Positions 2,769 to 53,892 of a stretch of DNA of 64,000 nt are shown one piece after another. Both the position numbers and the translations under genes were made by a program. Source of the DNA: Candidatus Schekmanbacteria bacterium RIFCSPLOWO2_02_FULL_38_14 (GTDB taxonomy: Bacteria > Schekmanbacteria > GWA2-38-11); assembly GCA_001790855.1 (NCBI GenBank), contig MGDH01000004.1, positions 20,237-84,236 on the forward strand, written 5' to 3'. The first letter of the stretch is position 1. Each line of letters opens with the position of its first letter. The notes beneath the pieces are model-generated. The model had not been told where the DNA came from and did not search any database. It was given only the letters and a program-made list of their open reading frames with translations.

Positions 2769-2867
2769 TTAAAGTATCCAGTCCGGTTTCAGATGTTTGA
2801 AGCTTTCAAACTGGACAAGCGCCATGTAGATACCAAAAAGTGTTATTAGAATCCAGGCAATCCAAAT
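2769..2867 (-). pseudogene. C-terminal remnant of a second transporter copy
   Basis: Overlapping the 3' end of the His-rich transporter, another frame encodes 32 residues (ILITLFGIYMALVQFESF in the middle) and stops at 2769. The core LFGIYMAL matches the intact transporter's own tail IFGLYMAL. It has no start and looks like the 3' end of a paralogue fused behind the intact gene by deletion. Confidence 0.45.
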
Positions 2868-3631
2868 CCATAAATATGATTAAGTTCCTCCAACGCCATA
2901 TAAAGGCCAAAAATAGCTATCAGAACCCCACTAATCCTTGTAAACATAACTTCATATTTTTCCTGATTCAACTTCTTCAAAAACATTGAAGCCCTGCCAA
3001 TAAAATAGGTCATTATCAAAACAACAAGCGTAGTAGCTATAGCGTAGGCTAAAAAAATTAACACACTGGAAAGAATGCTATCTGATTTAAGAGCTAATGT
3101 ATACATTGGTAGAGTAGCAGGACACGGGAGAATCATATTGATAAAGCTTAGCGAAAACATTCCCCAGTAGATTCCGTGTTTAAATTTTTTCTTGCCTGGC
3201 TTTGCAGGTTTTTCTCTGTGGTCTTTGCTGTGGCTGTGGCTGGTTTCATGGCTATGGCTATGTCCATGGTCATGGTCGTGGTCATCATGTTCGTGGTCAA
3301 AATGAAGCCACGTCGGCTTAAATATTAGAATAATTCCAAGAATAATCAGAATACCTGCTGTGCCTGCCCCCATGTAAGCACTCCAGTTCATAGGGATGAA
3401 ATCACCTATAACACCAAAAGCTATCCCTAAAAGAATACAGGCAACAGTCGTTCCAGCGCAAAACATTAAACTTATATAGAACAGCTTTTTCATAGTCTTT
3501 GCAGTTATTGCAAAAGGCGCTAATATAGGCCATGAATGTTCACACGGACTTAAGCCATGGAGAAGCCCAAGAAGTATGGGCAGTCCTAACAGCCCCAAAA
3601 TAGAAGTAAAATTAGAAATCACACCGTTCAT
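2846..3631 (-). CDS. His-rich polytopic metal transporter (TauE/SafE-NicO-like)
   Basis: 261-residue inner-membrane protein with about six membrane helices in two halves. The first half opens with LLHGLSPCEHSWPILAPFA and the second contains INMILPCPATLPMY, so each half carries a Pro-Cys or Cys-Pro element, as in the superfamily that holds CcdA/DsbD, UreH and NicO/RcnA proteins. The loop between the halves (about residues 109-150) has 12 His alternating with Asp and Ser, then a Lys-rich stretch, a common metal-buffering feature of Ni, Co or Zn transporters. It is last in the run of metal genes, 104 bases after the P1B-ATPase stop. Substrate and direction are inferred; a thiol-redox role like CcdA is the main alternative. 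Confidence 0.72.
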   Translation of the reverse strand: MNGVISNFTSILGLLGLPILLGLLHGLSPCEHSWPILAPFAITAKTMKKLFYISLMFCAGTTVACILLGIAFGVIGDFIPMNWSAYMGAGTAGILIILGIILIFKPTWLHFDHEHDDHDHDHGHSHSHETSHSHSKDHREKPAKPGKKKFKHGIYWGMFSLSFINMILPCPATLPMYTLALKSDSILSSVLIFLAYAIATTLVVLIMTYFIGRASMFLKKLNQEKYEVMFTRISGVLIAIFGLYMALEELNHIYGFGLPGF

Positions 3632-3651
3632 AAAATTTTCCCTTTCGTAAA

Positions 3652-3734
3652 AAAGGGTTCAAGGGGTCTAGGGTTCTAGGATTTAAGTGAAAATCAAATC
3701 CCAACCCTCGAACCCTTGAATCCTCGAACCCCTG
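3652..3734. repeat. GGGTTCAAGG-type inverted repeat, copy 1
   Basis: Imperfect inverted repeat opening with GGGTTCAAGGGG and closing with CGAACCCCTGA around an AT-rich centre. It fills the gap between the ATPase stop and the transporter start. The same family recurs at 5689, 45988, 51073 and 62690. Confidence 0.7.
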
Positions 3735-3735
3735 A

Positions 3736-5673
3736 TTAATCTTTATACTTGTACCCTATCAGCCTTGATGAATTCCCTACAACAACCAGAGAGCCTATGT
3801 TGTGAACAACTGCCCCTGCAACAGGACCTATTGTTCCAAAAGATGCAAGGAGAAGGGCAAAGGCATTTATGGCTATAGAAATAGCAAGGCTCTGTTTTAT
3901 AATCTGGACAGTCTTCCTGCTAAGAGCGATCCCTTCCGTCACTTTTGCTATATCATCAGAGACAAGTGCAATATGGGCTGCTTCAATTGCTGCATCAGTT
4001 CCGATTGCGCCCATTGCAATGCCAACATCTGCCATCGCAAGGGCCGGAGCATCATTTATTCCGTCTCCAACCATTGCAACCCTCTCTCCGCTATCTTTTA
4101 ATTTTTTGATGTAATCAACCTTTCCTTCAGGCAAAAGGTCAGCTACAATCTCGTCAAACCCGGCACCCCTTGCAGTAGCCTCAGCAGCTTTTTTGTTATC
4201 TCCGGTAAGAAGTATTACCTTTTTTATTCCAAGAGACCTGATATCTTTTACTGTCTGAAAAACTTCTTCCTTTATTTTATCAGCTATGCTTATACCCCCT
4301 ATTATTCTGTTATCTCTTGAAACAAGGACTGATGTTTTCCCATCATCAAGCTCTCTGTTTATGAACTCATTTGCCTCATCAGGAATATCTACTCCCATTT
4401 CTTCATAAAGCCTTGTGTTTCCAACAAGTATTCTTTCTCCAAAAGCCATGGCTTCAACTCCCTTTCCAACAATTGCTCTTGTCTTTTCAGGAGACGGAAC
4501 ACTTATTCCAGACTGCCCTGCTTTTTTAAGAATTGCCCCGCCAAGGGAATGTTCAGAATATTTTTCAGCAGTTGCAGCTATCTCCAGAACTTCAGACTCA
4601 GAAGCACTGTTAAACCCCTTAATATTTTTCACCTCAGGAGTCCCATAAGTAAGAGTCCCTGTTTTATCAAACACAAAGGCTGAAAGCTTTCCCATTGCTT
4701 CAAGTGTTGCCCCGCCCTTAATTAAAATCCCTTTTCTTGCTGCATTGCCTATCCCTGCAACAACTGCTGTTGGAGTAGCTATTACAAGGGCACACGGGCA
4801 GGCAACTACAAGCACAGTAACAGCCCTCAGAACACTCCCTGTCAGCAAATATACCATTATGGCAAGTGTTAACATTGATGGTGTAAACCAGGTTGAGAAC
4901 CTGTCAGCAATTCTTTCAATTGGTGGTTTTGATGCCTGCGCTTTTTTCACAAGCTCAATTATCTTTGAAAGAGTCGTATCCTTTCCAATCTTTGTTGTTT
5001 TAATTATCAGAACCCCTGCCCTGTTTATTGTCCCTCCGAAAACCTCATCACCCATCTTTTTGTAGACTGCCATTGATTCTCCGGTGATTGATGCCTGGTC
5101 AACCTCACCTTCTCCAACATCAATTATACCGTCAACAGGTATCCTTTCACCGGGTTTTACAACCACAAGGTCGCCAACCACGACTTCATCTATATCAACA
5201 ACTGCTTCTTCCCTTCCCCTTATGACTGTTGCTGTTTCAGGAGATAATTCCATCAACTTTCTTATTGCCTGTCCTGTTCTTGCAATGGTTATATCCTCAA
5301 GGAGTTCTCCAACATTCATCATCAGGACAACAATTGCGCCTGCAAGGTATTCGCCAACCCGGATTGATGCAAAAAGAGCACACGCAACAAGAACCTCTGC
5401 ATTGAGCTTTCTGTTTTCTATTGTTGAGATTATTGCATTTTTGACTATTGGATAACCGCTTAAAACAATTGCAACAAAAGAGAGGTTAATCCCAAAAGTG
5501 GTTTTATCAGAGCCTGAAATCCAGCTTGCAATTATAAAAATCACGGAAAGAACCGGGCTTAAAAAATCTTCCCATCTTTTAACAGCCTCTTCGAGCCCTC
5601 TGTGAGATTTATTCTCACGGGAATGCGAAGAAGCTGCCATCTCAATCAGACATTCCCTTGCTACATCATGCAT
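3736..5673 (-). CDS. P1B-type heavy-metal-transporting ATPase
   Basis: 645-residue ATP-driven metal pump of the inner membrane. It has four N-terminal membrane helices (about 35-130), the actuator TGES (197-200), the CPC membrane motif (292-294) in VVACPCALVIATPT, the phosphorylated Asp336 in DKTGT, GDGINDAP, and two last helices. Two features are unusual: the P1B hallmark SEHP is SEHS (373-376), and the last helix has HNIG (from 624) where Zn/Cd pumps have DxG, so the metal is not assignable. There is no N-terminal HMA domain. The ATG at 5673 (MHDVARE) is chosen because GGAG lies 5 bases upstream. The preceding gene begins with the same MHDV and repeats this protein's first membrane domain. 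Confidence 0.93.
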   Translation of the reverse strand: MHDVARECLIEMAASSHSRENKSHRGLEEAVKRWEDFLSPVLSVIFIIASWISGSDKTTFGINLSFVAIVLSGYPIVKNAIISTIENRKLNAEVLVACALFASIRVGEYLAGAIVVLMMNVGELLEDITIARTGQAIRKLMELSPETATVIRGREEAVVDIDEVVVGDLVVVKPGERIPVDGIIDVGEGEVDQASITGESMAVYKKMGDEVFGGTINRAGVLIIKTTKIGKDTTLSKIIELVKKAQASKPPIERIADRFSTWFTPSMLTLAIMVYLLTGSVLRAVTVLVVACPCALVIATPTAVVAGIGNAARKGILIKGGATLEAMGKLSAFVFDKTGTLTYGTPEVKNIKGFNSASESEVLEIAATAEKYSEHSLGGAILKKAGQSGISVPSPEKTRAIVGKGVEAMAFGERILVGNTRLYEEMGVDIPDEANEFINRELDDGKTSVLVSRDNRIIGGISIADKIKEEVFQTVKDIRSLGIKKVILLTGDNKKAAEATARGAGFDEIVADLLPEGKVDYIKKLKDSGERVAMVGDGINDAPALAMADVGIAMGAIGTDAAIEAAHIALVSDDIAKVTEGIALSRKTVQIIKQSLAISIAINAFALLLASFGTIGPVAGAVVHNIGSLVVVGNSSRLIGYKYKD

Positions 5674-5688
5674 ATCTGCTCCAAACAA

Positions 5689-5800
5689 AAGGGTTCAAGG
5701 ATTCGAGGGTTCAAGGAAAATACAAAGTAAAAAAATAAAAATATGGGGTTTGGGTTTATCTCACTTGATCCCTGGAATCCTTGACCCCTTGAACCCTTTT
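5689..5800. repeat. GGGTTCAAGG-type inverted repeat, copy 2
   Basis: Opens with GGGTTCAAGGATTCG and closes with CCTTGAACCC, fills the whole gap between the His-rich protein and the ATPase, and ends almost at both coding boundaries. Confidence 0.7.
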
Positions 5801-5803
5801 ACT

Positions 5804-6508
5804 TCACTTATTCCACGAAAAATCCAATCTCAAAAAACTGCCAAGCAGAATTAAAAACAGAGTCACTGCCACATAGAACATCTGCCCATAAATCATGGCA
5901 ATTATTAAAACAAGACTCACCGCCAAATCAGCATTAAATCTCTTTTCAATAATACCTCTTATAACTGAATTCTTTACCAGAGGGAAAAGTCCAATTACTG
6001 AAGCCATTACAAGAAACCCCCTGCCAAGAGTTCCACCCACCACACCAAGCCCGCTCAAAGCTGTCAGCAATCCGACAACAATAAGGGCAAACCAGTCCCT
6101 TGCAGGGTTATTGAACCATTTGTGTACAACGCTTGCCTCCTCCCTGTGGTGAACATGGTGATGAGAATGTAAAAGCTGGTGGCCATGATCATGAAGATGT
6201 TCAAAAGCCCTGTCAGAAAAAGTATCTCTCGGATGATTGTGATGGTGCTCATCCTCGTCTTCGTGGGCATGGTATTCTTCTTCTTCATGGTTGGAGTCGT
6301 GGTCATGACCTTGGTAATCCTCTTGTTCGCCGTGGTCGTGTTCTTCATCATCCTCATGCACATGCCTGAGTTCATAACCAGGATATTTTGATGCAAGCTT
6401 TTCATCGTGGTCATGCTCGTCTCCATGAGAATGATGAGACTTCTTACTCACATGTTTTTTCTTTGACCCTTTATCTTCAAACAAAGAATCTCTTTTGACA
6501 TCATGCAT
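5804..6508 (-). CDS. His-rich protein carrying a P1B-ATPase N-terminal membrane domain
   Basis: 234 residues in two parts. The first 130 contain 31 His interleaved with Asp and Glu, a strong candidate metal buffer. The last 95 form about four membrane helices and align with helices 1-4 of the neighbouring ATPase: FPLVKNSVIRGIIEKRFNAD here against YPIVKNAIISTIENRKLNAE there, ending LLGSFL against NVGELL. There are no actuator, CPC, DKTGT or nucleotide-binding parts. Both proteins start MHDV followed by a basic and an acidic residue, so they probably arose by duplication and truncation. I chose the ATG at 6508 because AGGAG lies 8 bases upstream; an in-frame ATG at 6538 lacks one. Likely role: metal binding or an accessory subunit of the pump (inference). 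Confidence 0.8.
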   Translation of the reverse strand: MHDVKRDSLFEDKGSKKKHVSKKSHHSHGDEHDHDEKLASKYPGYELRHVHEDDEEHDHGEQEDYQGHDHDSNHEEEEYHAHEDEDEHHHNHPRDTFSDRAFEHLHDHGHQLLHSHHHVHHREEASVVHKWFNNPARDWFALIVVGLLTALSGLGVVGGTLGRGFLVMASVIGLFPLVKNSVIRGIIEKRFNADLAVSLVLIIAMIYGQMFYVAVTLFLILLGSFLRLDFSWNK

Positions 6509-6540
6509 GGCTAATTCTCCTGAATATTTCATTAACATTA

Positions 6541-6616
6541 AAGGACAGCCAAGACGGCTATCCTACATTAGTAAATAATTTATTCTAAACCAGTAGGACA
6601 GGCGTCCCGCCTGTCA
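6541..6616. repeat. Two short REP-like hairpins
   Basis: Two palindromes: one with AGGA and AGCC arms at 6542-6564 and GACAGGCG-TCC-CGCCTGTC near 6597-6615. The second has an 8-bp stem and 3-base loop. Related GC-rich hairpins recur at 58677-58728. Neither is followed by a clear U-run on the minus strand, so I list them as repeats. Confidence 0.5.
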
Positions 6617-6627
6617 TGTTATAATAT

Positions 6628-7821
6628 TTATTTTGCACCTTGAACCTTTGCTTTTTTCTTCGTAGCTTTTGCCTTTACTTTTTCAAGTTTAATTAGCTTC
6701 CCCTTCTTCTTTTCAGCCGCACTCTTTTCTTCCATCTCTTTAGCATATTCCATTACCTGTTTGAATTTCTCAACACCCAGTGCTGCATTTTCAAATGGAG
6801 TCCTTCTCATCCTGAACCCTAAAGTCATCTCACTTGCAAGCCTGATGTCATCTTCGTTGACCTCTGTCCTGCTATCATAGGCAGCCTTTGCCTTTGAACC
6901 TCTTGTTATGATTATGTCAGGCCTGTGACCGTCAACATCAAGTTCTATGCACATCCTTGCTATTATTCTCAGAAAATGCTTATCCATATTAACTTTTGGA
7001 AGCAGTTCCTTTGCATGAATTATACGCTTTGTTATATCCCTGTTTGCAATCTCATATTTTTCTTTAAAAAGAATTGGATCCTTTTCAAACTCCTGAATAT
7101 GCTTTACAATCTGAAGTCTGCTGTTCAAATCATGGACCCCTTTTACCGCAACGTGGAATGCCATGCGGTCATGGAGCTGAGGCCTCAATTCCCCTTCATC
7201 AGGATTCATTGTGCCAACAAGCATAAAACTTGCAGGATGGGAAACCGATACCCCTTCCCTTTCAACAATGTTGACTCCCATTGCCGCAGAATCAAGAAGC
7301 ACATCCATTACATGGTCATCAAGAAGGTTAATGTTGTCAATATAGAGAATCCCGCGGTTTGCTTCAGCAAGTATTCCAACATCAAGGGCTTTAACTCCCT
7401 CTTTGATAGCTCTTTCTATGTTCAGAGTTCCGACAACCCTGTCCTCAGTTGCACCAACAGGAAGCTCTGCTATGTGCATCTTCTGCATCACAGATGGAAG
7501 TTTCTCCCCCTTCTCAAATTTTGACCTGCATATAGAGCACATCTTGCTTATATCCCTTGCGTCACATCTGAATTTGCAGTTCTTCACCACTTCTATTTCA
7601 GGAAGAACATCTGCAAGTCCCCTCACAGCCACTGTCTTGCCGCTCCCTCTCTCCCCTCTTACGAGTACTCCCCCAATCTGTGGATTGATGGCATTAAGGA
7701 TTAAGGCTAACTTCATCTTCTCCTGCCCTATTATTGCTGAAAAGGGAAAATTGGTCCTTCCTGTTGTAAATCTCTTTGATTCAGTTTCATGTTTTTCTAA
7801 AGCTAAGGCTTTCTTTGACAT
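6628..7821 (-). CDS. ChlI/BchI-type AAA+ protein with altered Walker B
   Basis: 397-residue paralogue of the Mg-chelatase I subunit. Walker A is GERGSGKT (56-63), a four-Cys insert follows (Cys82, 86, 95, 98), and the Walker B region reads [12 protein letters not shown], so the catalytic Glu present in both sister proteins of this cluster (YVDEINLL) is Asn163. The arginine-finger region is RPQLHDR rather than RPQLLDR. A Lys-rich tail of about 25 residues ends the protein. I use ATG 7821, not the upstream ATG 7848, because GGAGGAG lies 5 bases before it. It probably binds ATP but hydrolyses it poorly, suggesting a structural ring subunit (inference). It is the third I-type subunit in this run. 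Confidence 0.85.
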
Positions 7822-7874
7822 TACTTCTCCTCCAAATTTCTTGTACATAGAAATTTATTAAAAATTCCCGACTA

Positions 7875-7993
7875 TGTCATTGCGAGGAGCAAAGCGACGA
7901 AGCAATCTCATCTTTTAGCTGTTAGCTGACAGCTGTCAGCTTTTCAATGAGATTGCCACGCCCATTCGGTAAGCTCATGGGCTCGCAATGACA
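7875..7993. repeat. TCATTGCGAG-type inverted repeat, copy 1
   Basis: About 119 bases bounded by TGTCATTGCGAGG and GCTCGCAATGACA, with GCAATCTC/GAGATTGC subterminal elements. Seven relatives occur in the window. It fills most of the gap between two chelatase genes. It encodes nothing; a MITE-like non-autonomous element is possible. Confidence 0.75.
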
Positions 7994-8051
7994 CCATCAA
8001 AAACAAAATTTTTCATTAACCTTGCTAATTTCATAAAATCCTAAATTATAT

Positions 8052-10106
8052 TCACACGGCAGCCTGATGGCTTATTTTATCCAAGACAAAATTCTTCTCC
8101 ATTGTTATCAATGTCCCCAGACTCTGCTGGTCTAACTGGTCAATCCTGAAATACTTTGCCCCCATCTTCTCCGCAATGTCTTTTGCAAATTCAAAGGAAA
8201 AATTCAGAAACCTCATATTCTTTGTAACCTCTGTATCAATAACTATTGAATAGATACCTTCAACATTTATCATCTCTGCCAGTTTTTCTATTTCCTCCAT
8301 TGGGTCAGCACCCGGAATTATTGAAATGTTAGCCCTGCCGTCTGTTAAAAGAACCATGATTGGAATGATTGTTTCATCTTTTTTTCTCTCATTCTTTATA
8401 AGGTTAAGAGCCTTCATAAGCCCGAGGGCAAGGGGTGTTTTCCCGCCTGTTGGCAAATCAGTCAAAAGCTTTTTTGCAAGCTCAACTCCGTTTGTCGGAG
8501 GAAGGATTACCTGCGCATCATTCCCCCTGAAAGCAATCATCGCAATTCTGTCTCTGCTCTGGTAGGCATCCATGAGAAGCGAAAATACCGTTCCCTTTGC
8601 GCACTCCATCCTGTCAAGCGCTCCCATTGTACCGCTTGCATCAACAACCATAACAATAAGAGAGGAAACCTTGCTCTGCCTCACTTTGCCCCTTATGTCT
8701 TCACTGTGTATGATTATTGCGTGGTTTGTTTCTGCCTTTTCTCTTCTGGTTTTCTGATGGGGTGCTGAAGCCCTGACAGTCGCATCAAATGCTATATCAG
8801 TGATAGTTCCCTTGGGAATATTGTGCTTTATATATCTTCCCTTCCTTCCAACAGAGATAGATTTTATTCTTTTCCCGGAGCCTGAACGCATTTTGCGGTC
8901 AGCCTTTCTTTTTGTCATATCCTTTGGTATCTGGACAGGTGTCCCGATTCTGTGAATCTTTCCTTCAACTTTTTCTTTCTGTTCCTCTGTTGGTTCAAGG
9001 TCAGGCTTGTCCTCATTTTCCGGCGGAAAAAAATCATCCATATCCTTGCTGAGTTCATCCACAAGCTGGTCAATTATGTCATCTGATGCAGCATCATTTC
9101 CAAAAGGATTTGCCCTCATCCTGAATGGGAATATCAACTCCCCTGCTCTTTTTATGTCATCCTTTGTAAGCTCTGTTCTTCCGTTGTATGCTGCAAGTGT
9201 GGCAGCTGTTTTGGCAACCATCGTATCAGGCCTGTGCCCTTCAATATCAAGCTCCTTGCACATCTTGCAAATAAGTATCAGGATATTGTCTGATATATTT
9301 ATCTCCCTTAAAATCTTCTGGGCTTTTTCAATCTTTTTTGCAAGCCTCCTGCTTTCACTCTCAAACTTCTCGCTGAAAGCAACAGGGTTTGCTTCAAATT
9401 CATTCCTTAAAGATACAATTTTGACACGCTCATCCACATCATCAATTCCCTTTACATCAATGTGGAGTGCAATCCTGTCAAGAAGCTGAGGCCTGAGCTC
9501 CCCTTCCTCGGGATTCATTGTTCCCACAAGAATAAACCTTGACGGATGAGAGAACGAAATTCCTTCTCTCTCAACAACATTGACACCTGAAGTAGATGCA
9601 TCAAGAATCACATCAATCACATGGTCATCCAGAAGATTAATTTCATCAACGTAGAGTATTCCCTGATTGACTTCTGCAAGTATTCCCGGCTCAAGTTCTT
9701 TTTTCCCTAACTTCACAGCTTTCTCAAGGTCAAGGCTTCCGAGAAGCCTGTCTTCAGTTGAGCCAAGAGGAAGATCAACAACTTTAATCCTTCTCTTTTC
9801 CGCTTCAATTCTTCTTCCCCTTCCGGAAGCCTTTTCCAGAACCCTTTCCTTGCAGTAAGGGCACAGTTCAGTAAAAATATGAGGATTACAGCTAAACGGA
9901 CACCCCCTTACCACATCTACCTTTGGAAGAATCTCAGCAAGGGCTCTGACTGCTGTTGACTTCCCTGTTCCCTTTTCTCCCCTTATCAGAACACCGCCAA
10001 CCTGTGTATTAATGGCATTAAGAATAAGCGCCAATTTCATACTCTCCTGCCCTACAAGGGCTGCAAAGGGATACAGAATCCTTTCTACGCGTTGTATTTT
10101 TTCCAC
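8052..10106 (-). CDS. Chelatase ChlI/ChlD fusion: AAA+ plus VWA domain
   Basis: 684-residue protein joining an ATPase module to an integrin-I-like module, as in ChlID-type subunits of Mg or Co chelatases. Residues 1-345: Walker A GEKGTGKS (43-50), a four-Cys insert (69, 73, 82, 85), intact Walker [13 protein letters not shown] and RPQLLDR. An acidic, Pro-rich linker follows near 370-400, then a basic stretch, then VWA at about 479-684 with the MIDAS sequence DASGT from Asp489 (Thr in the third MIDAS position) and the later TGGKTP and LTDGRAN elements. GTG 10106 is taken as start because AGAAGG lies 6 bases before it; TTG 10112 would touch the Shine-Dalgarno. It should dock ATPase rings on the BchH-like subunit encoded upstream. 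Confidence 0.9.
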   Translation of the reverse strand: MEKIQRVERILYPFAALVGQESMKLALILNAINTQVGGVLIRGEKGTGKSTAVRALAEILPKVDVVRGCPFSCNPHIFTELCPYCKERVLEKASGRGRRIEAEKRRIKVVDLPLGSTEDRLLGSLDLEKAVKLGKKELEPGILAEVNQGILYVDEINLLDDHVIDVILDASTSGVNVVEREGISFSHPSRFILVGTMNPEEGELRPQLLDRIALHIDVKGIDDVDERVKIVSLRNEFEANPVAFSEKFESESRRLAKKIEKAQKILREINISDNILILICKMCKELDIEGHRPDTMVAKTAATLAAYNGRTELTKDDIKRAGELIFPFRMRANPFGNDAASDDIIDQLVDELSKDMDDFFPPENEDKPDLEPTEEQKEKVEGKIHRIGTPVQIPKDMTKRKADRKMRSGSGKRIKSISVGRKGRYIKHNIPKGTITDIAFDATVRASAPHQKTRREKAETNHAIIIHSEDIRGKVRQSKVSSLIVMVVDASGTMGALDRMECAKGTVFSLLMDAYQSRDRIAMIAFRGNDAQVILPPTNGVELAKKLLTDLPTGGKTPLALGLMKALNLIKNERKKDETIIPIMVLLTDGRANISIIPGADPMEEIEKLAEMINVEGIYSIVIDTEVTKNMRFLNFSFEFAKDIAEKMGAKYFRIDQLDQQSLGTLITMEKNFVLDKISHQAAV

Positions 10107-10119
10107 AGACAACCTTCTC

Positions 10120-10240
10120 TGAGTTTAAAATCCAAAGTTCAAAATCCAAATGTCAAATAAATCTCAAATATCAAAATAAAAAAAATAAGTAATTTTTAAA
10201 TTTGACATTCATTTGAAATTTGAAATTTACCTATAGATAA
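10120..10240. repeat. AT-rich AAATCCAAA/TTTGACATT repeat
   Basis: Intergenic stretch with AAAATCCAAAGTTC, AAATCCAAATGTC and, in inverse orientation, TTTGACATTC and GAAATTTGAAATTT. Similar text occurs in the centre of other repeats here (about 46060-46110 and 62730-62800). Non-coding. Confidence 0.4.
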
Positions 10241-10246
10241 TTTAAA

Positions 10247-11323
10247 TCATACCTCTGCATATGTCCTGTTAACAATATCTTCAAAAATATCCACTGTCTT
10301 TTCATCGCTTTTAAACATAGTCTTCCTTGTTCTGAATGGAAGTATCAGTTTTACAGCCTCTTTAACATCATCCCTTGTAATCCTTTTCTTTCCTCTGAAT
10401 GCAGCAAGGGTTTTGACTGTCTTGACAATCATTGCATCAGGCCTGTGCCCTTCAACTTCCAGCTCATTGCAGATATTGCAGATAATTCTTAAAAGGCTTT
10501 CATCTGTCTTAACTTTTTCCATAAGCTTCTGAGTAGTTATTATTTTTTTTCTTAACTCCTCGCTCTGCTTTTCAAATTTTTTGCTGAACGCCATCGGGTC
10601 TTTCTCAAACTCATTCCTGAGAATGGTTATCTTCACCCTCTCATTAACACTCTTTAAACCCTCTACATCTATATGAAGGGCAATCCTGTCAAGAAGCTGA
10701 GGTCTGAGTTCCCCCTCTTCTGGATTCATTGTTCCAACAAGGATAAACCTTGACGGATGGGAAAATGAAATTCCCTCTCTTTCAACAACATTTACTCCGG
10801 AGGTTGCTGTATCAAGAAGCATATCCACAACATGGTCATCAAGAAGATTTATTTCATCAACATAGAGAATCCCGCGGTTAACATCAGCCAGTATTCCCGG
10901 CTCAAGCTCTTTTTTTCCGCTTTTTATGGCTTTCTCGATATCAAGGCTTCCAAGAAGCCTGTCTTCTGTTGAGCCAAGAGGAAGGTCAACGACCTTCATC
11001 TTCCGCTTCTCCGTTGGAACCTTGCCGCCGTTCCACTCGCCTCTTTCAACCTTCTCCATGCAATACGGGCACATCTCCGAAGTCCTTTTTGGATTGCAGT
11101 TAAAAGGGCATCCCTTTATCACTTCAATCTCTGGAAGAACCTCAGCAAGGGCTCTGACAGCAGTAGATTTTCCTGTCCCTTTTTCTCCTCTTACAAGAAC
11201 TCCTCCGACCTGAGGATTAATGGCATTAAGAAGCAGAGCAAGCTTCATCCCCTCCTGTCCAACTATGGCTACAAAAGGGTATAGAATCCGTTTAAAGCGT
11301 TCTTTAGAACTATTACTTCCCAT
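10247..11323 (-). CDS. Mg-chelatase-type ATPase subunit I (ChlI/BchI family)
   Basis: 358-residue AAA+ ATPase, close to the usual ChlI length. Walker A GEKGTGKS (46-53), a Cys4 insert (72, 76, 85, 88), Walker [13 protein letters not shown], sensor [18 protein letters not shown] and the C-terminal EGHRPD element are all intact, so this is the likely motor of the chelatase. It forms rings with the D-type subunit and powers metal insertion by the H subunit. ATG 11323 gives a 10-base spacing from GGAGG; the in-frame TTG at 11332 almost touches that GGAGG and is unlikely. It lies 146 bases after the BchH-like gene, the gap holding GC-rich repeats. Confidence 0.92.
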
Positions 11324-11361
11324 TATCTTCAAACCTCCTAATTTCTCTTCTAAAATCTCTT

Positions 11362-11462
11362 TTCACCCTCCCCTTAATCCCCTCCTGTCAAGGGAGGGGA
11401 AGTAAAGGAATATCACTGCTCACTACCCTCTCCCCTTGCGGGAGAGGGACAGGGTGAGGGGT
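11362..11462. repeat. GC-rich palindromic repeats (CCCCTCCC family)
   Basis: Two inverted units: CCCCTCCTGTCAAGGGAGGGG and CCTCTCCCC-TTGCGG-GAGAGGG followed by ACAGGGTGAGGGG. Related text occurs at 51108-51160 and, translated, inside the membrane protein gene at 44834-44879. Confidence 0.55.
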
Positions 11463-11469
11463 TTCCCCT

Positions 11470-14400
11470 CTATTCCTCCTGCTCTTCAATCTGGGATTCA
11501 ATCTCAAGATATATCTGCTTTAATTTTTCCAGTTCCTCAGGAGATGCCTCCCATTTCCCTCTGTTATAAGCCTCCATCAGGCGGTTAAGGGAATGTTCTA
11601 CAGCCCAGATATTTTCCTGCATCATCTTCTTTCTTACTTCATCATCAAACATATACTTTTCAGCCACACCGCTCCATACCCAGTTATCAACAGAACCCGC
11701 AGTAACAGACCACCCAAGTAAGTGTTCAACCCTCTGGCCAATATTTCTTATTCCTTTGTAACCGCTGTCAATCTGGCCTTTTATCCATTCAGGATTCAAA
11801 AGTTTTGTTTTTGCTTCATAATCAAGGGTTGACCTTATGCTTTTAGTCTTAATTTTATCTCTTGTGCTGTCCGCAACAAGAATTGTAGGCATGGTTTTGC
11901 CTCTTCCAGGATTCTTCTTCCTCACAGTCTCAACAGACTTTGAAAGACCTCCAAGAAATTCATAGTAATGGTCCAAATCTGCCATACCGTATTCCTCACT
12001 GCTTCTTACCTGAGCAACAACATCTACTTTATCAAGCACCTCTTTGAATGTATCAACACTTGAGAAGGCGTGGAATTTGTCACCATAGATATGAGCCATT
12101 TTTGATATGTGCAAATCTGCTATCTGGCTTTCATCCTCCCATTCAGAGGTTTCAATTATCTGTGTTACATCAGTTCCATAATTGGATGAAGAGGGACCGA
12201 AAATTCTTGCCTGTGCAAGGCTTTCTGCCTGTTCTTTTGGCACTCCCTTGCCTTCAAGAACTTTCTGGATTTCAAGCGAGTGCTTCCTCATAAAATTCTG
12301 CCCAGATGGCTCATCAAGAGAGGCAACAATTTTAAATGCCCGGTCAATCATTCTTAAAAGCAGGGGAAAGGTATCCCTGAATATACCGCATATCTCAACA
12401 ACAACATCTACTCTTGGTCTGCCGAGTTCCTTGAGAGGAATTGGAGAGACTCCGACAAAACCACCAACCCCCGACCACCTTGGCTTCACACCAAGGAGCC
12501 TGAAAATCTCAGCCACTGTTTCACCCTGCGTTTTCATTGTTTCAAATCCCCACAGGATGACAGCAACAGTTTCAGGCAAATTATTGTCATTTTCTGCCTT
12601 ATAGTTTTCAATAACCTGATCAGCTATTGCCTCTCCCCTCTCACATGCAAGTGGTGTTGGTATGAGGTCAGGATTGAACTGATATATATTCCTTCCGGTT
12701 GGAACAACACTTGGGCTCCTGATTGGGTCTCCGCCAAGTCCCGGAGGAATATATGAACCCTTCATTGCCTCTATAAGGGCTTCACCCTCTTTATTGGAAG
12801 ATAAACTCTTTGCAAAGGTCTTGGCAAACTCCAGAGTTTTCTCAAATTCTTCCGCATGCTCTGTCTTGAGTTTAAACTTAACATTCTTTTTTATAAGCTT
12901 TTTGACAGGAGAATTATTTTGAATCACCAGAGAAAGAATACTTCTTGCATCCTTATCTATTTCATCTAAAACCGCTCCCATCAGTTTGCCGCCTTTAGTT
13001 ATTTTTGACGGAGTTGTGCGGGCTTCATCCCAGTCTATCCCTCTTGAAGCAGCAATCATCTTGTGAAGCGACACCATATCGCCCCTGTCAAACCTCACGA
13101 CTCCAAGAACATAATTTATTAACTCTTCTCCATTCAGAGAGTCTCCAAGCACATGAACTCCCTTGGTCATCATGCTCCCTTTCATCTCATTAAGGGAATC
13201 ATAGAGCTTATTGATATCAACATCCGCAGCCTCTACATCAACCATGTTTGCTTCCTTTGCCTTATCAAGTATCCCCTCTTTTATTTTCTTAGCCTGCGCA
13301 GGACTCTGCTCCTTCTGTTGGAAAAAATTATGGATATCCATTTCAAGCTCTGCATATTTTCCGTAAAGGTCAGAGATTATCATTGGTGGAGTCATATAAT
13401 CTACCGTCGTGGCATATATTCTCCTTTTCGCTATTGAGGATTCAGATGGATTGCTGCAGGTATAAAAATACAGATTTGGAAGATTTCCTATAAGAATGTC
13501 AGGATAACAGGTCTTGGACATTGCAACATGCTTTCCGGGAAGAAACTCAAGTGTTCCGTGAGTTCCAAAATGCAGTATGGCATCAGCCCTGAAAGTATCT
13601 TCAATCCATCTGTAAAAAGCAAGGTACTGATGGTGCGGAACAATTGCCTGGTCATGGTATGTCTTTGAAGGGTCTTCAAAATATCCGCGGGGTGGCTGGA
13701 AACCTACAAATACATTTCCAAAAGCGATTCCGGGAACGAATATGTTTTTATCATCACACATTATTTTCCCCGGAGGATCACCCCAAGCTCCTATCATCTC
13801 ATCCTGACAGGACTTTGGCACATTTTCAAACCATTTTTTATAATCATCAAGCGACACCTTGAAAGAATTTTCCTTTACCTTTTGTAGCGCTGTCCAGTTG
13901 CTCTGGTTAATTATATTTTTCTTTGTAACAAGCCTGATAAATTCATGCCTTGTTCTTGGATAGCCCGAAACAACATATCCATCATCTTTCATTTTATCCA
14001 AAAGCCTTATAATACTTTCAAATGTATCAAGGTTTCCTGCACTGCCCAGATTATCTTTTCCCGGAGGGTAGTTGAAAAGAACTATTGCAACCTTTTTATC
14101 CTTGTTCTGCTTATGTCTCAGCTTAATCCAGTTAACTGTCCTTGCTACAGCCTTATCAACCCTGTCCTCAATCGGTTCCATTATTCTTACTATGTTTTTC
14201 CCTGTTGATATATCCCTGTGTCCTGCAACCAGCAATCCCTCAATCAAGCCATCAAGCTCAGGAAGAATTACTGTTATTGTGGTCTCAAGCGGAGCCATTC
14301 CCTCTGGCTTTTCCTTCCATTCATCAATGGTTGTATACCCCATGCACAGATAGTGTATGAATGGAATATTCATCTTCTTGCAGAGATTCACAAAACCCTC

Positions 14401-15360
14401 ATAGTCCCCTCCAAGCGGACCTCCCTCTATGCGGAAGAAAAGGAAGCTTATGATGGCGTCAACAGTTGGCCCCTTCTCATTAATGAAATGCCTTTTGATA
14501 TTGCGAACATTTTCAGAGCCTTCTGAGAGCACTGTAACGACTCTAACTCCCTTTTCCTCTAACTTTTCAATAACCATGTTCAGGTCTTTTATGTCTTCAC
14601 TCTGGTAGCGCTGCAGATAAAAAAGTATCCCGATAAGGGGTCTTTTTTTCCATCCATTGTTTTTTACAAGGTTTGTTTTATCATACCATTTCAGGTATTC
14701 ATCAAGCGAGAGAAAAAAGTCCTGGGCTTTTGGATGGTAGATAGCTGTTGGCGGAACTTCTACAGGGTCTTTATAGCTGACTTTGTAGCCATAATATTCT
14801 GCCATTATAAAGTAGAGCATATTTATAATGTTTTCTCTTCCACCCTTGTAAAAATATTTCCACAACCTGACATAGTTGCCGGCATCCTTCCATTTTCCAA
14901 ACCTCAATACCTTTAAAAACACATCAGATATCTCAAGAAGTTTTCTCACTTCCATTGGGCTTTTGCTGCTTACCATAAGCCCTTTCAGAACTGACAACAC
15001 CTTCATTATTTTTGATTCTGCAACAGCATCAACAAGCTCACCAAGTTTGAATTTTCCGAGTTTTGTAAGCTTGATTCCCCTTGGAACCGAGGCAAGAACA
15101 ATGAATGATTTCTCCTTATTGTGGTACTTCTCAAGAATGGCAAGAACAACATCATCAAAAACCATATTAACAATTATTACATCTGCCTTTGAAACATTCT
15201 CCTCCATCTGATCCAGCTGTTTTTTGGAAAACGGCTGATGTCTCAGACAGAACTGATAAGTAAGTTCCACTTCCCCCTTGAACATCTCTTTTAATTTATC
15301 TGATGCATCTGAGAATGATTTGCTGAAGGTATAATCACCAACTATGGCAGTAATATGCAT
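11470..15360 (-). CDS. BchH/CobN-type metallochelatase large subunit
   Basis: 1296-residue protein of the porphyrin-binding chelatase family. It begins with the N-terminal domain typical of BchH/ChlH (about 1-160), then the long CobN/Mg-chelatase body with the conserved blocks HFGTHGTLEFLPGKH and FYTCSNPSESSIAKRR, GYPRTRHE, and WGFETMKTQGET with DVVVEICGIFRDTFP. Length and N-terminal domain fit BchH better than aerobic CobN. The start is supported by GAGGAGG 6 bases before ATG 15360. It is the first structural gene after marR (30-base gap). No protoporphyrin, chlorophyll or cobalamin synthesis gene lies in the window, so metal and tetrapyrrole are open; Mg, Co or Ni are all conceivable. Confidence 0.9.
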   Translation of the reverse strand: MHITAIVGDYTFSKSFSDASDKLKEMFKGEVELTYQFCLRHQPFSKKQLDQMEENVSKADVIIVNMVFDDVVLAILEKYHNKEKSFIVLASVPRGIKLTKLGKFKLGELVDAVAESKIMKVLSVLKGLMVSSKSPMEVRKLLEISDVFLKVLRFGKWKDAGNYVRLWKYFYKGGRENIINMLYFIMAEYYGYKVSYKDPVEVPPTAIYHPKAQDFFLSLDEYLKWYDKTNLVKNNGWKKRPLIGILFYLQRYQSEDIKDLNMVIEKLEEKGVRVVTVLSEGSENVRNIKRHFINEKGPTVDAIISFLFFRIEGGPLGGDYEGFVNLCKKMNIPFIHYLCMGYTTIDEWKEKPEGMAPLETTITVILPELDGLIEGLLVAGHRDISTGKNIVRIMEPIEDRVDKAVARTVNWIKLRHKQNKDKKVAIVLFNYPPGKDNLGSAGNLDTFESIIRLLDKMKDDGYVVSGYPRTRHEFIRLVTKKNIINQSNWTALQKVKENSFKVSLDDYKKWFENVPKSCQDEMIGAWGDPPGKIMCDDKNIFVPGIAFGNVFVGFQPPRGYFEDPSKTYHDQAIVPHHQYLAFYRWIEDTFRADAILHFGTHGTLEFLPGKHVAMSKTCYPDILIGNLPNLYFYTCSNPSESSIAKRRIYATTVDYMTPPMIISDLYGKYAELEMDIHNFFQQKEQSPAQAKKIKEGILDKAKEANMVDVEAADVDINKLYDSLNEMKGSMMTKGVHVLGDSLNGEELINYVLGVVRFDRGDMVSLHKMIAASRGIDWDEARTTPSKITKGGKLMGAVLDEIDKDARSILSLVIQNNSPVKKLIKKNVKFKLKTEHAEEFEKTLEFAKTFAKSLSSNKEGEALIEAMKGSYIPPGLGGDPIRSPSVVPTGRNIYQFNPDLIPTPLACERGEAIADQVIENYKAENDNNLPETVAVILWGFETMKTQGETVAEIFRLLGVKPRWSGVGGFVGVSPIPLKELGRPRVDVVVEICGIFRDTFPLLLRMIDRAFKIVASLDEPSGQNFMRKHSLEIQKVLEGKGVPKEQAESLAQARIFGPSSSNYGTDVTQIIETSEWEDESQIADLHISKMAHIYGDKFHAFSSVDTFKEVLDKVDVVAQVRSSEEYGMADLDHYYEFLGGLSKSVETVRKKNPGRGKTMPTILVADSTRDKIKTKSIRSTLDYEAKTKLLNPEWIKGQIDSGYKGIRNIGQRVEHLLGWSVTAGSVDNWVWSGVAEKYMFDDEVRKKMMQENIWAVEHSLNRLMEAYNRGKWEASPEELEKLKQIYLEIESQIEEQEE

Positions 15361-15390
15361 ACTTTCCTCCTCAAGAAATTAACTTATAAC

Positions 15391-15867
15391 CTATCCAATT
15401 TTTTTAAGTATCTGGCTTGCCTTCTCAAGATTCTTTATGAGCTCATCCCAATCCTCACTGCTAAGTTTGCTGAAGATATTTTCAAGCTCTTCCCTTCTTC
15501 GTTCCATAAATTCCTTTCGCATCTTCTTACCCTTTTCTGTCAATTTAACCCGCACAACCCTTCTATCATCAGGGTCTCTCCATCTTTCCACTATACCAAC
15601 CTCTTCTAAACCATCTATCATCTCGGTCATACTCGGCATTGCTACCTGAATATTTCTGCTCAACTCTCCCATGGTGTAGTCTTTATCTTCTTTAAAGGCT
15701 GATAAGGCTTTAAGCTGTGAAAGGTTGAAATCAAACTTTAGCTTTTCCTTGTCAATGCTTATTACACGATTGGTAAACTCAACAAAAAACTCCCTGACTT
15801 TTGATATCTGGCTTTCTAATTTGTCAATTTGCTGTATTGTCGCAAAGGCTTTATTTGAATCACCCAT
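15391..15867 (-). CDS. MarR-family transcriptional regulator
   Basis: 158-residue winged-helix repressor type. The HTH and wing lie at about residues 50-105, with MGELSRNIQVAMPSMTEMID as recognition region and ERWRDPDDRRVVRVKLTEKG as the beta wing, typical of MarR; coiled dimerisation helices flank it. GGAG precedes ATG 15867 by 8 bases. It is first in the same-strand run that continues with the BchH-like gene 30 bases downstream. Three 15-bp repeats overlapping its promoter are the obvious operator, so autoregulation and control of the chelatase genes are likely (inference). The ligand is unknown; a metal or a tetrapyrrole would fit. Confidence 0.9.
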   Translation of the reverse strand: MGDSNKAFATIQQIDKLESQISKVREFFVEFTNRVISIDKEKLKFDFNLSQLKALSAFKEDKDYTMGELSRNIQVAMPSMTEMIDGLEEVGIVERWRDPDDRRVVRVKLTEKGKKMRKEFMERRREELENIFSKLSSEDWDELIKNLEKASQILKKIG

Positions 15868-15885
15868 TTTTTTATCTCCACAAAG

Positions 15886-15930
15886 TAATTAGATTTTGAA
15901 TAATTAGTTTTATAATAATTAGTTTACTAA
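15886..15930. promoter_or_regulatory. Three tandem 15-bp repeats, candidate MarR operator
   Basis: TAATTAGATTTTGAA, TAATTAGTTTTATAA and TAATTAGTTTACTAA follow each other without gaps at 15886, 15901 and 15916. A related TAATTAAATTCTTGT lies at 15943, inside the promoter spacer. They sit between the -10 box and the marR start codon, a classic repressor position. Confidence 0.55.
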
Positions 15931-15932
15931 AT

Positions 15933-15960
15933 ATTATATACCTAATTAAATTCTTGTCAA
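15933..15960 (-). promoter_or_regulatory. Consensus sigma70 promoter of marR and the chelatase genes
   Basis: On the minus strand TTGACA (15955-15960) and TATAAT (15933-15938), both perfect consensus, are 16 bases apart. Transcription would start near 15926, within the tandem 15-bp repeats, and run into marR. Confidence 0.7.
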
Positions 15961-16531: not shown

Positions 16532-17281
16532 CTAAAAATATGTTGCAGACCGGAGAGGTTCTTCTGTAATGGAGTTTACTCCTCCTACTACAAGAGTAAA
16601 TTCTCCTTTAATCTGTTTTCTTTTTAAAAACTCCTTGATTCCATCTGAAATTTGTCCTCTGAAAATCTCTTCATACATTTTTGTAAGTTCCCTGCATATA
16701 GCGACCTTCCTGTCTCCCATCACTTCTTTGATATCCTCCAGTGTCTTTATCAATCGATAGGGAGATTCGAATATGATTATTGTCTCTTCGCTCTCCTTGA
16801 ATTTTTCAAGATAAGTTTTTTTTTTGTTCCTTTTTACCGGTAGAAATCCTGAAAAATAAAATCTGCTTGTTGGAAGTCCTGATACAGACAGGGCTGCATT
16901 TAAGGCAGAAACCCCGCAGACAGGAACTATATTAATACCCTGCTCGAGAGACTGCTTTATCAAAAGATATCCCGGGTCTGAAATCCCGGGGGTTCCTGCA
17001 TCTGAAACAAGAGCAACATTTTTCCCATTCAAAAGCTCTTTTACAATTAACTTCCCTTTGTATATTTTATTGTGTTCAAAATAGCTAATCAGGGGGTTTT
17101 TAATTTGGTAGTGGTTTAGAAGAATCCTTGTCCGTCTTGTATCTTCTGCTGCGATAATATCTGCTTCTTTTAAAATTCGTATTGCTCTTAGAGTTATATC
17201 TTCAAGATTTCCTATTGGAGTGCTGACAATGAAAAGGCTGCCCTTCCCTCCATTCATTTTATTATTTTCCATCACTTGCAT
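16532..17281 (-). CDS. rsmI: 16S rRNA (cytidine1402-2'-O)-methyltransferase
   Basis: About 250 residues of the tetrapyrrole-methylase fold. The signature FIVSTPIGNLEDITLRAIRIL near the N-terminus, AAEDTRRTRILLNHY, LVSDAGTPGISDPGYLL and PVCGVSALNAALSVSGLPTS are the RsmI blocks. The enzyme methylates the ribose of C1402 in 16S rRNA using SAM in the cytoplasm. The start is uncertain: in-frame ATGs at 17281, 17272 and 17257 and a TTG at 17290 all lack a strong ribosome site; 17257 would give the usual short N-terminus. It follows the PfkB-kinase gene by about 40 bases on the same strand. Confidence 0.93.
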   Translation of the reverse strand: MQVMENNKMNGGKGSLFIVSTPIGNLEDITLRAIRILKEADIIAAEDTRRTRILLNHYQIKNPLISYFEHNKIYKGKLIVKELLNGKNVALVSDAGTPGISDPGYLLIKQSLEQGINIVPVCGVSALNAALSVSGLPTSRFYFSGFLPVKRNKKKTYLEKFKESEETIIIFESPYRLIKTLEDIKEVMGDRKVAICRELTKMYEEIFRGQISDGIKEFLKRKQIKGEFTLVVGGVNSITEEPLRSATYF

Positions 17282-17322
17282 TTCAACCAATAAACAATAA
17301 ACAGATTAAATATAATCATAAC

Positions 17323-22614: not shown

Positions 22615-23358
22615 TTGGAAAAGAATAAAGAGTTCATAAGAAAGATGTTTTCCTCTATATCCTCAAGGTATGACTTCTTAAACCATCTTTTAAGCCTTGG
22701 GTTTGACAGGAAATGGAGAGAAAATACTGCAAAATCCATTCTGTCTGATGGCTCAAGCAGAGTTCTTGATGTATGCGCCGGTACTCTTGACTTATCAATA
22801 GCTGTCTCATCATACAATGGTTTTAATGGTATGGTAGTTGGAACTGATTTCTGTAAGGAGATGATAGAGATTGGGAAAAAGAAAATATCAGAAAGCAATC
22901 AGCTTTCAGCTATCAGCAGTCAGACCTCAGAACTCAAAACTCAAAACTCAAAGCTTATACCTCTCTGCGCTGACACACTGCATCTGCCCTTCAAAGACAA
23001 CTCCTTTGATGCCATTACCTCTGCTTTCGGGATAAGGAACATTCAGAACCTAAGAAATGCTCTGATTGAGATGCGAAGGGTTATAAGAAATGGCGGGAAA
23101 GCTGTCATACTTGAATTCTACCGCCCCAAAAACTCTCTCCTTTTTTCCCTATATCTTTTTTATTTCAGAAACATTCTTCCTTCATTGGGAAGAATAATCT
23201 CAGGAGATAAGAAAGCCTACTCTTACCTCAGGGATTCAGTAACAGCATTCCTTACACAGGAAGAGATGAAAAAAGAAATGGAACTTGCCGGGTTTAAAAA
23301 TGTAGGTTATGAAAATTTAACTTTTGGAATAGTGACTATCCATATTGGAAGAAAATGA
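22615..23358 (+). CDS. ubiE: Demethylmenaquinone/ubiquinone C-methyltransferase
   Basis: 247-residue SAM methyltransferase of the MenG/UbiE family; it methylates the quinone ring in the last step of menaquinone synthesis. Family hallmarks are FIRKMFSSISSRYDFLNHLLSLG near the N-terminus, TDFCKEMIEIG, AFGIRNIQNLRNAL and the SYLRDSV tail. TTG 22615 is the likely start: GGAG lies 7 bases before it and keeps the conserved IRKMF segment. Two oddities: the SAM motif reads DVCAGTLD where GTGD is usual, and residues about 94-113 (NQLSAISSQTSELKTQNSK) look like an intergenic repeat inserted in frame. It overlaps the next gene by ATGA. Confidence 0.9.
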   Translation: MEKNKEFIRKMFSSISSRYDFLNHLLSLGFDRKWRENTAKSILSDGSSRVLDVCAGTLDLSIAVSSYNGFNGMVVGTDFCKEMIEIGKKKISESNQLSAISSQTSELKTQNSKLIPLCADTLHLPFKDNSFDAITSAFGIRNIQNLRNALIEMRRVIRNGGKAVILEFYRPKNSLLFSLYLFYFRNILPSLGRIISGDKKAYSYLRDSVTAFLTQEEMKKEMELAGFKNVGYENLTFGIVTIHIGRK

Positions 23359-24218
23359 GCTTTTTGAAAGAAATTAAAACTTTTTTTACAGACATAAAAA
23401 TTGAGCATACTGTCTTTGCCCTTCCCTTTGCGGTAATGAGCGCCTTCATAGCCTCAGAAGGGATTCCTCAGAAAGAGAAAATCTTCTGGATAATAATTGC
23501 AATGATTGGAGCAAGAAGCTGGGCAATGGCATTTAACAGGGTTGCTGATTCAGGGCTTGATGCTGTAAATCCGCGAACAAAAAACAGGGCAATCCCTTCA
23601 GGGCTGTTGAGCAAGCAGAAAATGTGGGTATTCGGGATATTTTCAATCCTGATTTTTGAGTTTGCAGCCTACAGTCTTAACAGGTTAGCCTTTATTCTTT
23701 CACCATTAGCTCTTCTTATTATTTCTTTCTATTCCTACACCAAACGTTTTACCTCGCTATCTCACCTTTTTTTAGGACTCTCTCTGAGCATTGCCCCTGT
23801 TGGCGCATGGGTTGCAATTAGAGAAGAGATTTCCATTGTATCAGCAGAGCTTGCCCTTGCAGTAATGCTCTGGACAGCAGGGTTTGACATACTATATTCA
23901 CTTCAAGACCTTGACTTTGACAGAACCTATGGACTTTATTCCATACCAAAAAAAATCGGTGTTAAAAATTCACTCACCCTTTCAAAATCCCTTCATATCC
24001 TGACTGTCCTGATACTCTTTTCCGTCATCTTTTTTTCTTTTCTTGGAAAAATCTATCTCCTTGGAGTTATTCTCTCTTCTTTTTTCCTTATCTATGAACA
24101 CCTCTTAATTAAAGAAAATGACCTCTCAAAAATCAACAAAGCCTTCTTCAATATGAATGGTATTGTAAGCTTAACTTTGATGTTTTTTACCATTGTAGAT
24201 TGTTTGTTTGGAAAGTAA
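23355..24218 (+). CDS. UbiA-family prenyltransferase, MqnP-like
   Basis: 287-residue polytopic prenyltransferase with about eight or nine helices. The opening DIKIEHTVFALPFAVMSA and MAFNRVADSGLDAVNPRTKNRAIPSG are characteristic of MqnP, the futalosine-pathway enzyme that attaches the polyprenyl chain; the second Asp-rich site is YSLQDLDFDRTYGLYSIPKK. It starts ATG 23355 overlapping the ubiE stop (ATGA), so the pair is translationally coupled and would perform the last two steps of menaquinone synthesis. 4-hydroxybenzoate polyprenyltransferase (UbiA) is the alternative, but no ubiquinone gene is seen. Confidence 0.87.
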   Translation: MSFLKEIKTFFTDIKIEHTVFALPFAVMSAFIASEGIPQKEKIFWIIIAMIGARSWAMAFNRVADSGLDAVNPRTKNRAIPSGLLSKQKMWVFGIFSILIFEFAAYSLNRLAFILSPLALLIISFYSYTKRFTSLSHLFLGLSLSIAPVGAWVAIREEISIVSAELALAVMLWTAGFDILYSLQDLDFDRTYGLYSIPKKIGVKNSLTLSKSLHILTVLILFSVIFFSFLGKIYLLGVILSSFFLIYEHLLIKENDLSKINKAFFNMNGIVSLTLMFFTIVDCLFGK

Positions 24219-35049: not shown

Positions 35050-35741
35050 TTATCTATGGTATAAATCTTCAGCTATATCCTCTAACTCCAGTTCCAGCAA
35101 TTTTTCCTTTTTAGGAGCCGTAGTTTCTTTGTCCCAACCGCGGCAGTCATAATAGTCGTCAAGCATTTTTTCAATACCCTCTTTTTTAAACGTTTTTCCC
35201 CTCCATTTATCACCATCAGCTGGTTTTTCAAAAAACATTGACGGCACTCTGTCATTCTTTCTGCTAAAGCCGCCAACTCTGAGATTAAACGCCTGCTCAA
35301 CAGGCAAAACATCATCTATTATCAATCCCCGCAAATGGTCTGTTCAAATTCCTCGCTCCCTTTCCCGATTCTTGATGCTGCAACCTTCTGCCCATCACAC
35401 AGAATTTCTCCAAATCCCTTTTTATGAGCCATCTGCTCAATAAGCGAATAGACTGTTTTAAAATTTCCCCATTCAAGCTTTATCCCTTCTGTATCCTCGC
35501 TTTTTGAAATTGCATTAACAGGGCATGCTTTCTGGCACGGAGGGTTTTTGCAGAGCTTGCAGGTTACAGGGTAATCTATGAGATGTTCAACTGTAACAAC
35601 CCTTATTCTTGAAAGCCAGGGGGCAAAAATTCCTTCATGCCTGAATGAACAGACTATCTCGCATAGCCTGCAACCAGAGCAAACAGCAGGGAATTTACCT
35701 TCTTCAAGAATTATTTTTTTATCTTTAACCATAATTTTCAT
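35050..35741 (-). pseudogene. Decayed ferredoxin-aldehyde:ferredoxin oxidoreductase locus
   Basis: Two overlapping frames hold pieces of two genes. The first (35322-35741) starts as an AOR-type ferredoxin with CSGCRLCEIVC and CKLCKNPPCQKACPVNA, loses the rest of that protein, and continues as an internal AOR segment (LEWGNFKTVYSLIEQ, GFGEILCDG, AASRIGKGSEEF). The second (35050-35334), shifted by one frame, is the AOR C-terminal tail (AFNLRVGGFSRKNDRVPS, EKMLDDYYDCRGWDKE). At least two deletions and a frame change separate them, so no working enzyme remains. An intact homologous pair lies at 51246-53688. Confidence 0.75.
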
Positions 35742-53201: not shown

Positions 53202-53202
53202 A

Positions 53203-53688: not shown

Positions 53689-53892
53689 ACTTCCCCCTTT
53701 ATAAGATTAACCTTGTTTAAAACCACAAAACATTTTGATAATCTTTCAGGGACTCACCTCCTTCCAGTTATTTTTTTTAATCTTTCTCCTTTCCTGACGG
53801 GAGGCATTCTGATTTCTCAGAATACCCTAATAGCGACCATTCCCCATATCTTTTATTTCAAGATTTAGGCGAAATGGTTCGGAGACAGAAAT

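Follow-up and report, generated by a model that had tools for sequence, protein, structure and literature searches.

What use would a bacterium whose own tetrapyrrole pathway seems to end at siroheme have for a three-part chelatase, and why would the chelatase genes share an operon with metal pumps? The question is raised by a 64,000-nucleotide stretch of DNA (here called the window) from Candidatus Schekmanbacteria bacterium RIFCSPLOWO2_02_FULL_38_14 (contig MGDH01000004.1, positions 20,237 to 84,236). Eight consecutive genes occupy its minus strand from 2846 to 15867, as read from the open reading frames (ORFs): a MarR-family regulator, a large chelatase subunit of the BchH/CobN type (H), three proteins of the ChlI/ChlD class (I_a, ID, and I_b), a His-rich membrane protein, a P1B-type ATPase, and a second membrane protein with a His-rich loop. 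The metals of metallo-tetrapyrroles are inserted by dedicated chelatases, and to our knowledge metallo-tetrapyrroles are few. We propose, tentatively and with rather less than even confidence, that the operon encodes a MarR-autoregulated class I chelatase that inserts a metal other than iron into sirohydrochlorin or a close relative of it, together with a pair of proteins that buffer and export the metal. No description of this operon was found in the literature searched, the coverage of which was partial.

Gene content and conservation of the operon

Profiles from Pfam and NCBIfam were used to assign the proteins to families, and the assignments agree with a first-pass annotation made from the letters of the window without database searches: all eight genes are present, on one strand, where that annotation had placed them. 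The regulator (15391 to 15867; 158 amino acids; PF01047, 4.6e-10) is followed by H (11470 to 15360; 1296 amino acids), which has an N-terminal DUF3479 domain and matches PF02514 with 1186 bits. Then come I_a (10247 to 11332; 361 amino acids), a ChlI-type AAA+ ATPase that matches TIGR02442 and TIGR02030; ID (8052 to 10112; 686 amino acids), a fusion of ChlI and ChlD that matches TIGR02442 (731 bits) and VWA_2; and I_b (6628 to 7848; 406 amino acids), again of the ChlI type. The His-rich membrane protein (5804 to 6538; 244 amino acids, or 234 from a likely start at 6508) matches no family, and the P1B-type heavy-metal ATPase (3736 to 5688; 650 amino acids, with a likely start at 5673) matches TIGR01525 with 603 bits and TIGR01512 with 502 bits. 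The last protein (2846 to 3631; 261 amino acids) is DsbD_2/NicO-like and may be a transporter of the Ni/Co type. It exceeds the cut-off for PF13386 (54 bits), while NicO (PF03824, 21.5 bits) and PRK10019 (41.5 bits) both score under theirs.

Is this arrangement an accident of one genome? We searched 116 genomes for homologues of H and found close ones, 65-66% identical, in two genomes (G002 and G003) of a different family of the same taxonomic order. In both, the genes for MarR, H, I_a, ID, I_b, the His-rich protein, and the P1B ATPase have the same order and strand as in the window, so that, counting the window's genome, the gene order is common to three genera and two families. Chance can be excluded as the source of an arrangement that recurs in two other genera. 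The MarR of G003 is 57% identical to that of the window; the gene in G002 is masked by a longer antisense ORF, and the orthologue was found by reading the sequence. Gaps between genes run from 30 to 203 bp in the window, wider than the -8 to 61 bp of G002 and G003. Between I_b and the His-rich gene, the window sequence has a hairpin with a 10-bp stem (AGGATAGCCGTCTTGGCTGTCCT; 6542-6564, minus strand).

The periphery of the operon is less constant. In G002 a MATE exporter gene sits after H, and the NicO-like gene adjoins the operon in neither G002 nor G003, being present there only in the window copy. The coupling of chelatase to pumps that had been proposed from the window alone therefore stands in part: the P1B ATPase stays with the chelatase in three genera, but the NicO-like gene is not conserved, and a more distant relative, CALJBY, lacks the pumps at this place. 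Two arrangements that would have spoken against the coupling, the same gene order inside a chlorophyll or cobalamin operon and the loss of the pumps from beside the chelatase, are seen in neither G002 nor G003. The only other genome from the window's own family (G001, 70% complete) gave no match to H. Taken together, the comparison supports the view that the genes of the chelatase and of its P1B neighbour form a conserved unit within the taxonomic order and not beyond it.

The window's genome carries a single copy of H, that of the operon. G002 has a second, solo H (G002:C3:420609-424502; L014, L039), 52% identical, with no adjoining I, D, or pump genes.

The chelatase subunits

H passes the cut-off of the BchH model TIGR02025 (1064 bits, cut-off 829) and fails that of the CobN model TIGR02257 (724 bits, cut-off 822). 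Its best relative of solved structure is ChlH (4zhj), and the structure of HmuS (9d26) also matches. These scores might suggest an ordinary BchH; the tree does not. There H groups, on starred branches, with the proteins from G002, G003, and CALJBY and, more deeply, with that of G017, and the clade lies outside the annotated groups of phototroph BchH, CobN, and HmuS, the HmuS rows forming a starred clade of their own. A second tree, built without the HmuS rows, again put H outside the phototroph clade. Two constrained placements were rejected by the approximately unbiased (AU) test, H nested inside BchH with p 1.3e-5 and H grouped with the main CobN rows with p 1.4e-6. A wider survey of 386 genomes, at E 1e-190, added no member to the clade; two new genomes grouped with the ChlH-like G049a. 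H retains the HGxLE motif of the CobN-Mg_chel family (as HGTLE), and at residue 1199 of the window protein the clade has serine in place of a histidine that the BchH and CobN rows used for comparison have invariantly. With regard to a methionine-rich insertion like that of HmuS, a simple count of Met per 60 residues gave no distinction between annotated HmuS rows and the rest. The deep relative G017 (L041 2458-7874) has one fused ID and no pumps, and its neighbours are functionally uninformative.

Walker A and B are intact in I_a and ID (alignment A3), and in the copies of ID from the window, G002, and G003 the AAA+ motifs are accompanied by the metal ion-dependent adhesion site (MIDAS; DASGT) of the VWA domain, features that speak for a motor able to drive insertion. 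I_b is different: DN replaces the DE of Walker B in all four orthologues, and Walker A reads GxAK in two of the four. It is probably a conserved, degenerate ATPase, that is, a pseudo-ATPase. In magnesium chelatase the inactive partner is the AAA+ domain of ChlD, and perhaps that role has moved here to a separate protein.

With a CobN-Mg_chel H subunit bearing HGxLE, a ChlI-type AAA+ motor, and a VWA subunit of the ChlD type, the operon has the composition of a class I (H/I/D) chelatase. We accordingly file it, on its sequence, as a variant of class I linked in an operon to metal efflux and not as a new kind of system.

The metal pump and its His-rich partner

The P1B ATPase has a CPC motif and, in its last membrane helix, HNIGS, both invariant in the three genera. 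The combination of CPC and HN has been called P1B6-like in CtpC, a mycobacterial zinc exporter that works with PacL1, a small membrane protein that binds metal and is encoded alongside the exporter (PMC9374683). The operon resembles this pair in that the gene for the ATPase comes directly after that for a small membrane protein with a metal-binding tail. By its motifs, then, the ATPase appears CtpC-like, and the motifs point to export and not to supply of metal; the first-pass annotation had suggested both.

The likeness to PacL1 does not extend to the partner itself, which is linked to a chelatase and gave no match to DUF1490 in the copies from the window, G002, or G003. It consists of membrane helices and a His/acid-rich tail of about 105 residues. 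Its alignment with the N-terminal half of the P1B ATPase (hhalign 94.9%, E 4.5e-8, 72 columns) and the common beginning of the two proteins, MHD[IV]xR[DE], make it look like a duplicated and truncated P1B. The AlphaFold model is poor (predicted local distance difference test score 52). A profile match to zinc transporter 7 in PDB was set aside as probably a matter of His-rich composition, and a tblastn search of plasmids with the membrane part of the protein gave no match.

Promoter, palindrome, and regulator

Upstream of marR is a sigma-70-type promoter, TTGACA-16-TATAAT (15933 to 15960, minus strand), that matches the consensus at 12 of 12 positions; the island in the first-pass annotation had been drawn to end at 15960, which turns out to be the first base of this match. 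Promoter-like sites are commoner than chance in the region (50 found, 33 expected). In this case both TTGACA and the -10 region have aligned counterparts in G002 and G003. Overlapping the -10 box is a 22-bp palindrome, AATATTTAG-N4-CTAAATATT (15914 to 15935), with one mismatch, which we propose as the MarR operator. It is the sole match in the window, where 0.15 would be expected, and it recurs at the equivalent position of the marR promoter with no mismatch in G003 and two in G002. It was not found in the trunk locus or in the stretch examined around the solo H of G002. The counts of matches are partly circular, because the motif was derived from these very promoters, and we consider the shared position within the promoter to be the stronger evidence. 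It suggests that MarR represses its own operon at the palindrome.

No riboswitch was detected upstream of the operon at the gathering threshold. The only match in the window is to a molybdenum/tungsten riboswitch (53770-53897, minus strand; 70.5 bits, gathering 36), which lies between a gene for an HdrA/FlpD-like multi-domain protein (53893-56304) and a ferredoxin-type gene after which comes one for aldehyde ferredoxin oxidoreductase (51246-53688). Elsewhere, an ORF of 139 amino acids (35322-35741, minus strand) matches only part of domains 2 and 3 of aldehyde ferredoxin oxidoreductase and is possibly a gene remnant.

Tetrapyrrole genes in the window and in the genome

What ring could such a chelatase work on? 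A Pfam scan of nearly all the other window ORFs of at least 110 amino acids found no gene of haem, chlorophyll, F430, or cobalamin synthesis. Two candidates were considered and rejected. The adjoining gene with a TP_methylase fold (16532-17290) encodes the rRNA methyltransferase RsmI (TIGR00096, 247 bits, cut-off 168), and the UbiA/UbiE pair (22615-24218) scores as menaquinone-type and not as chlorophyll synthase. The earlier description of the island as free of tetrapyrrole genes thus holds for the window but not for the genome, where pathway genes lie on other contigs. Contig 22 encodes HemB, CobA-HemD, HemC, and a protein of the precorrin-2 dehydrogenase type, and contig 21 encodes a chelatase of the CbiX/CfbA type, under the CfbA cut-off. 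The genome also encodes two NIR_SIR proteins, which suggest that siroheme is used.

The search of the genome went family by family, each absence resting on one model applied to a 99%-complete assembly. It gave no match to UROD, hence no protoporphyrin route was found, and none to the AhbA/B domain. No AhbD-like protein rose above background (best 141 bits, compared to 475 in G003 and 413 in G001). Corrin methylases were not found, CobA-HemD and RsmI being the only TP_methylases. Nor was there a convincing ferrochelatase: PF00762 gives one partial, low-scoring match, to a protein of about 480 residues. From the genes found and those absent, the tetrapyrrole inventory ends at siroheme. In G002 and G003, UROD does have matches, and G003 also has the AhbD-like protein.

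The protein with the weak PF00762 match (L084 1339-2775; L085 901-2346) occurs in all four genomes of the taxonomic order and has an N-terminal stretch resembling a membrane helix.

What does the operon do?

Since the pathway found in the genome reaches only siroheme, sirohydrochlorin or a close relative is the likeliest home-made substrate. By hypothesis, H would hold the tetrapyrrole, ATP would be hydrolysed by I_a together with the AAA+ domain of ID, the VWA domain of ID would link this motor to H, and I_b would serve as a pseudo-ATPase regulator. The metal inserted would be one other than iron, with Zn, Co, or Ni the likeliest, and the product would be a metallo-isobacteriochlorin. Buffering and export of the metal, to keep the free ion low, would fall to the CtpC-like ATPase and its His-rich partner, and repression by MarR at the promoter palindrome would be relieved by the tetrapyrrole or the metal.

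Several considerations count against this proposal. The genome already has, in its CbiX/CfbA-type protein, a chelatase for sirohydrochlorin. The ring could be imported. The inventory, with its absences on single models, did not extend to BchM, BchE, the Cfb genes, or HemA/HemL. Other branches of tetrapyrrole synthesis may exist in G002 and G003, so the argument for the substrate applies to the window's genome only. In CALJBY, where H is 63% identical, H, I_b, and ID are followed by unrelated genes and the pumps do not adjoin, and the coupling of chelatase to pumps may therefore be recent and local.

The chief alternative, which we think unlikely, is that the operon serves to clear tetrapyrroles loaded with metal: imported or misloaded rings would be stripped by the chelatase, the P1B pair would export the metal, the MATE protein of G002 would export the ring, and MarR would sense porphyrin. 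There are precedents for each half of this. HmuS, a large subunit of the same superfamily as H, takes iron from haem using NADH, in contrast to the ATP-driven CobN and ChlH, which are encoded with I and D subunits (PMC12583661). PefR, which belongs to the MarR family and senses haem and protoporphyrin, controls efflux through an inverted-repeat operator (PMC2858704), and the operon likewise begins with a MarR-type gene, has export genes, and has a candidate operator of that form. The conserved partners of the chelatase are, moreover, metal exporters. The precedents stop short of the operon, however. The PefR regulon has no chelatase, and the operon's H, outside the HmuS clade, has as neighbours I_a, ID, I_b, the His-rich protein, and the P1B ATPase, a full I/D motor included. 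The plasmid relatives adjoin HmuY and ExbB-type genes; among the identified neighbours of the operon there is no gene for HmuY or a TonB receptor. The ATP motor and the H tree favour insertion of metal over removal.

It is about equally unlikely, in our estimate, that the genes share an operon and not a pathway, the operon being a MarR regulon of the stress type, with pumps that deal with toxic metal and a chelatase whose work is unrelated. The arrangement in CALJBY, with H, I, and ID and no pumps, fits this, as do the solo H of G002 and the variability of the NicO-like and MATE genes. Against it stands the order from H to P1B, kept across three genera and two families, and the spacing of the operon's last genes, which lie 16-28 bp apart in G003 and 1-34 bp apart in G002.

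It seems improbable that the enzyme is a cobalt chelatase with a CobN-like role in the salvage or remodelling of a corrinoid, whether imported or made in part. The Cys-containing I and ID proteins do score best with TIGR02442, the model for a putative cobaltochelatase, whose group is that of CobN with ChlI/ChlD-type partners, and the NicO-like transporter of the window copy is weakly similar to nickel/cobalt exporters. All the I/ID scores are under the cut-off of TIGR02442, however, no corrin methylase was found in the genome, and H falls both under the CobN cut-off and outside the CobN group. Most improbable of all is a magnesium chelatase belonging to, or left over from, a chlorophyll pathway, for although H passes the BchH cut-off and the operon shares with BchHID/ChlHID the DUF3479 and PF02514 domains of H and subunits of the I and D types, it differs in the separate clade of H, in the fused ID with its intact AAA+ domain, in the second, degenerate I protein, and in its MarR and pumps, and it is found with no bch gene in the window and no route to protoporphyrin.

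Insertion of a metal into sirohydrochlorin could be taken a step further. The operon's enzyme might belong to a further, fourth branch of the class I chelatases, which makes an undescribed metallo-isobacteriochlorin from sirohydrochlorin and shares its operon with a MarR that senses tetrapyrroles and with a platform for metal efflux. In that extended form the proposal is doubtful.

Implications

A conserved three-part chelatase in an organism whose own pathway seemingly ends at siroheme points to something new, be it a cofactor or a means of dealing with rings that carry metal. Whichever it may be, the operon ties a class I chelatase to metal export directly, at the level of the genes, and it presents a subunit plan in which the probable inactive ATPase is a protein in its own right.

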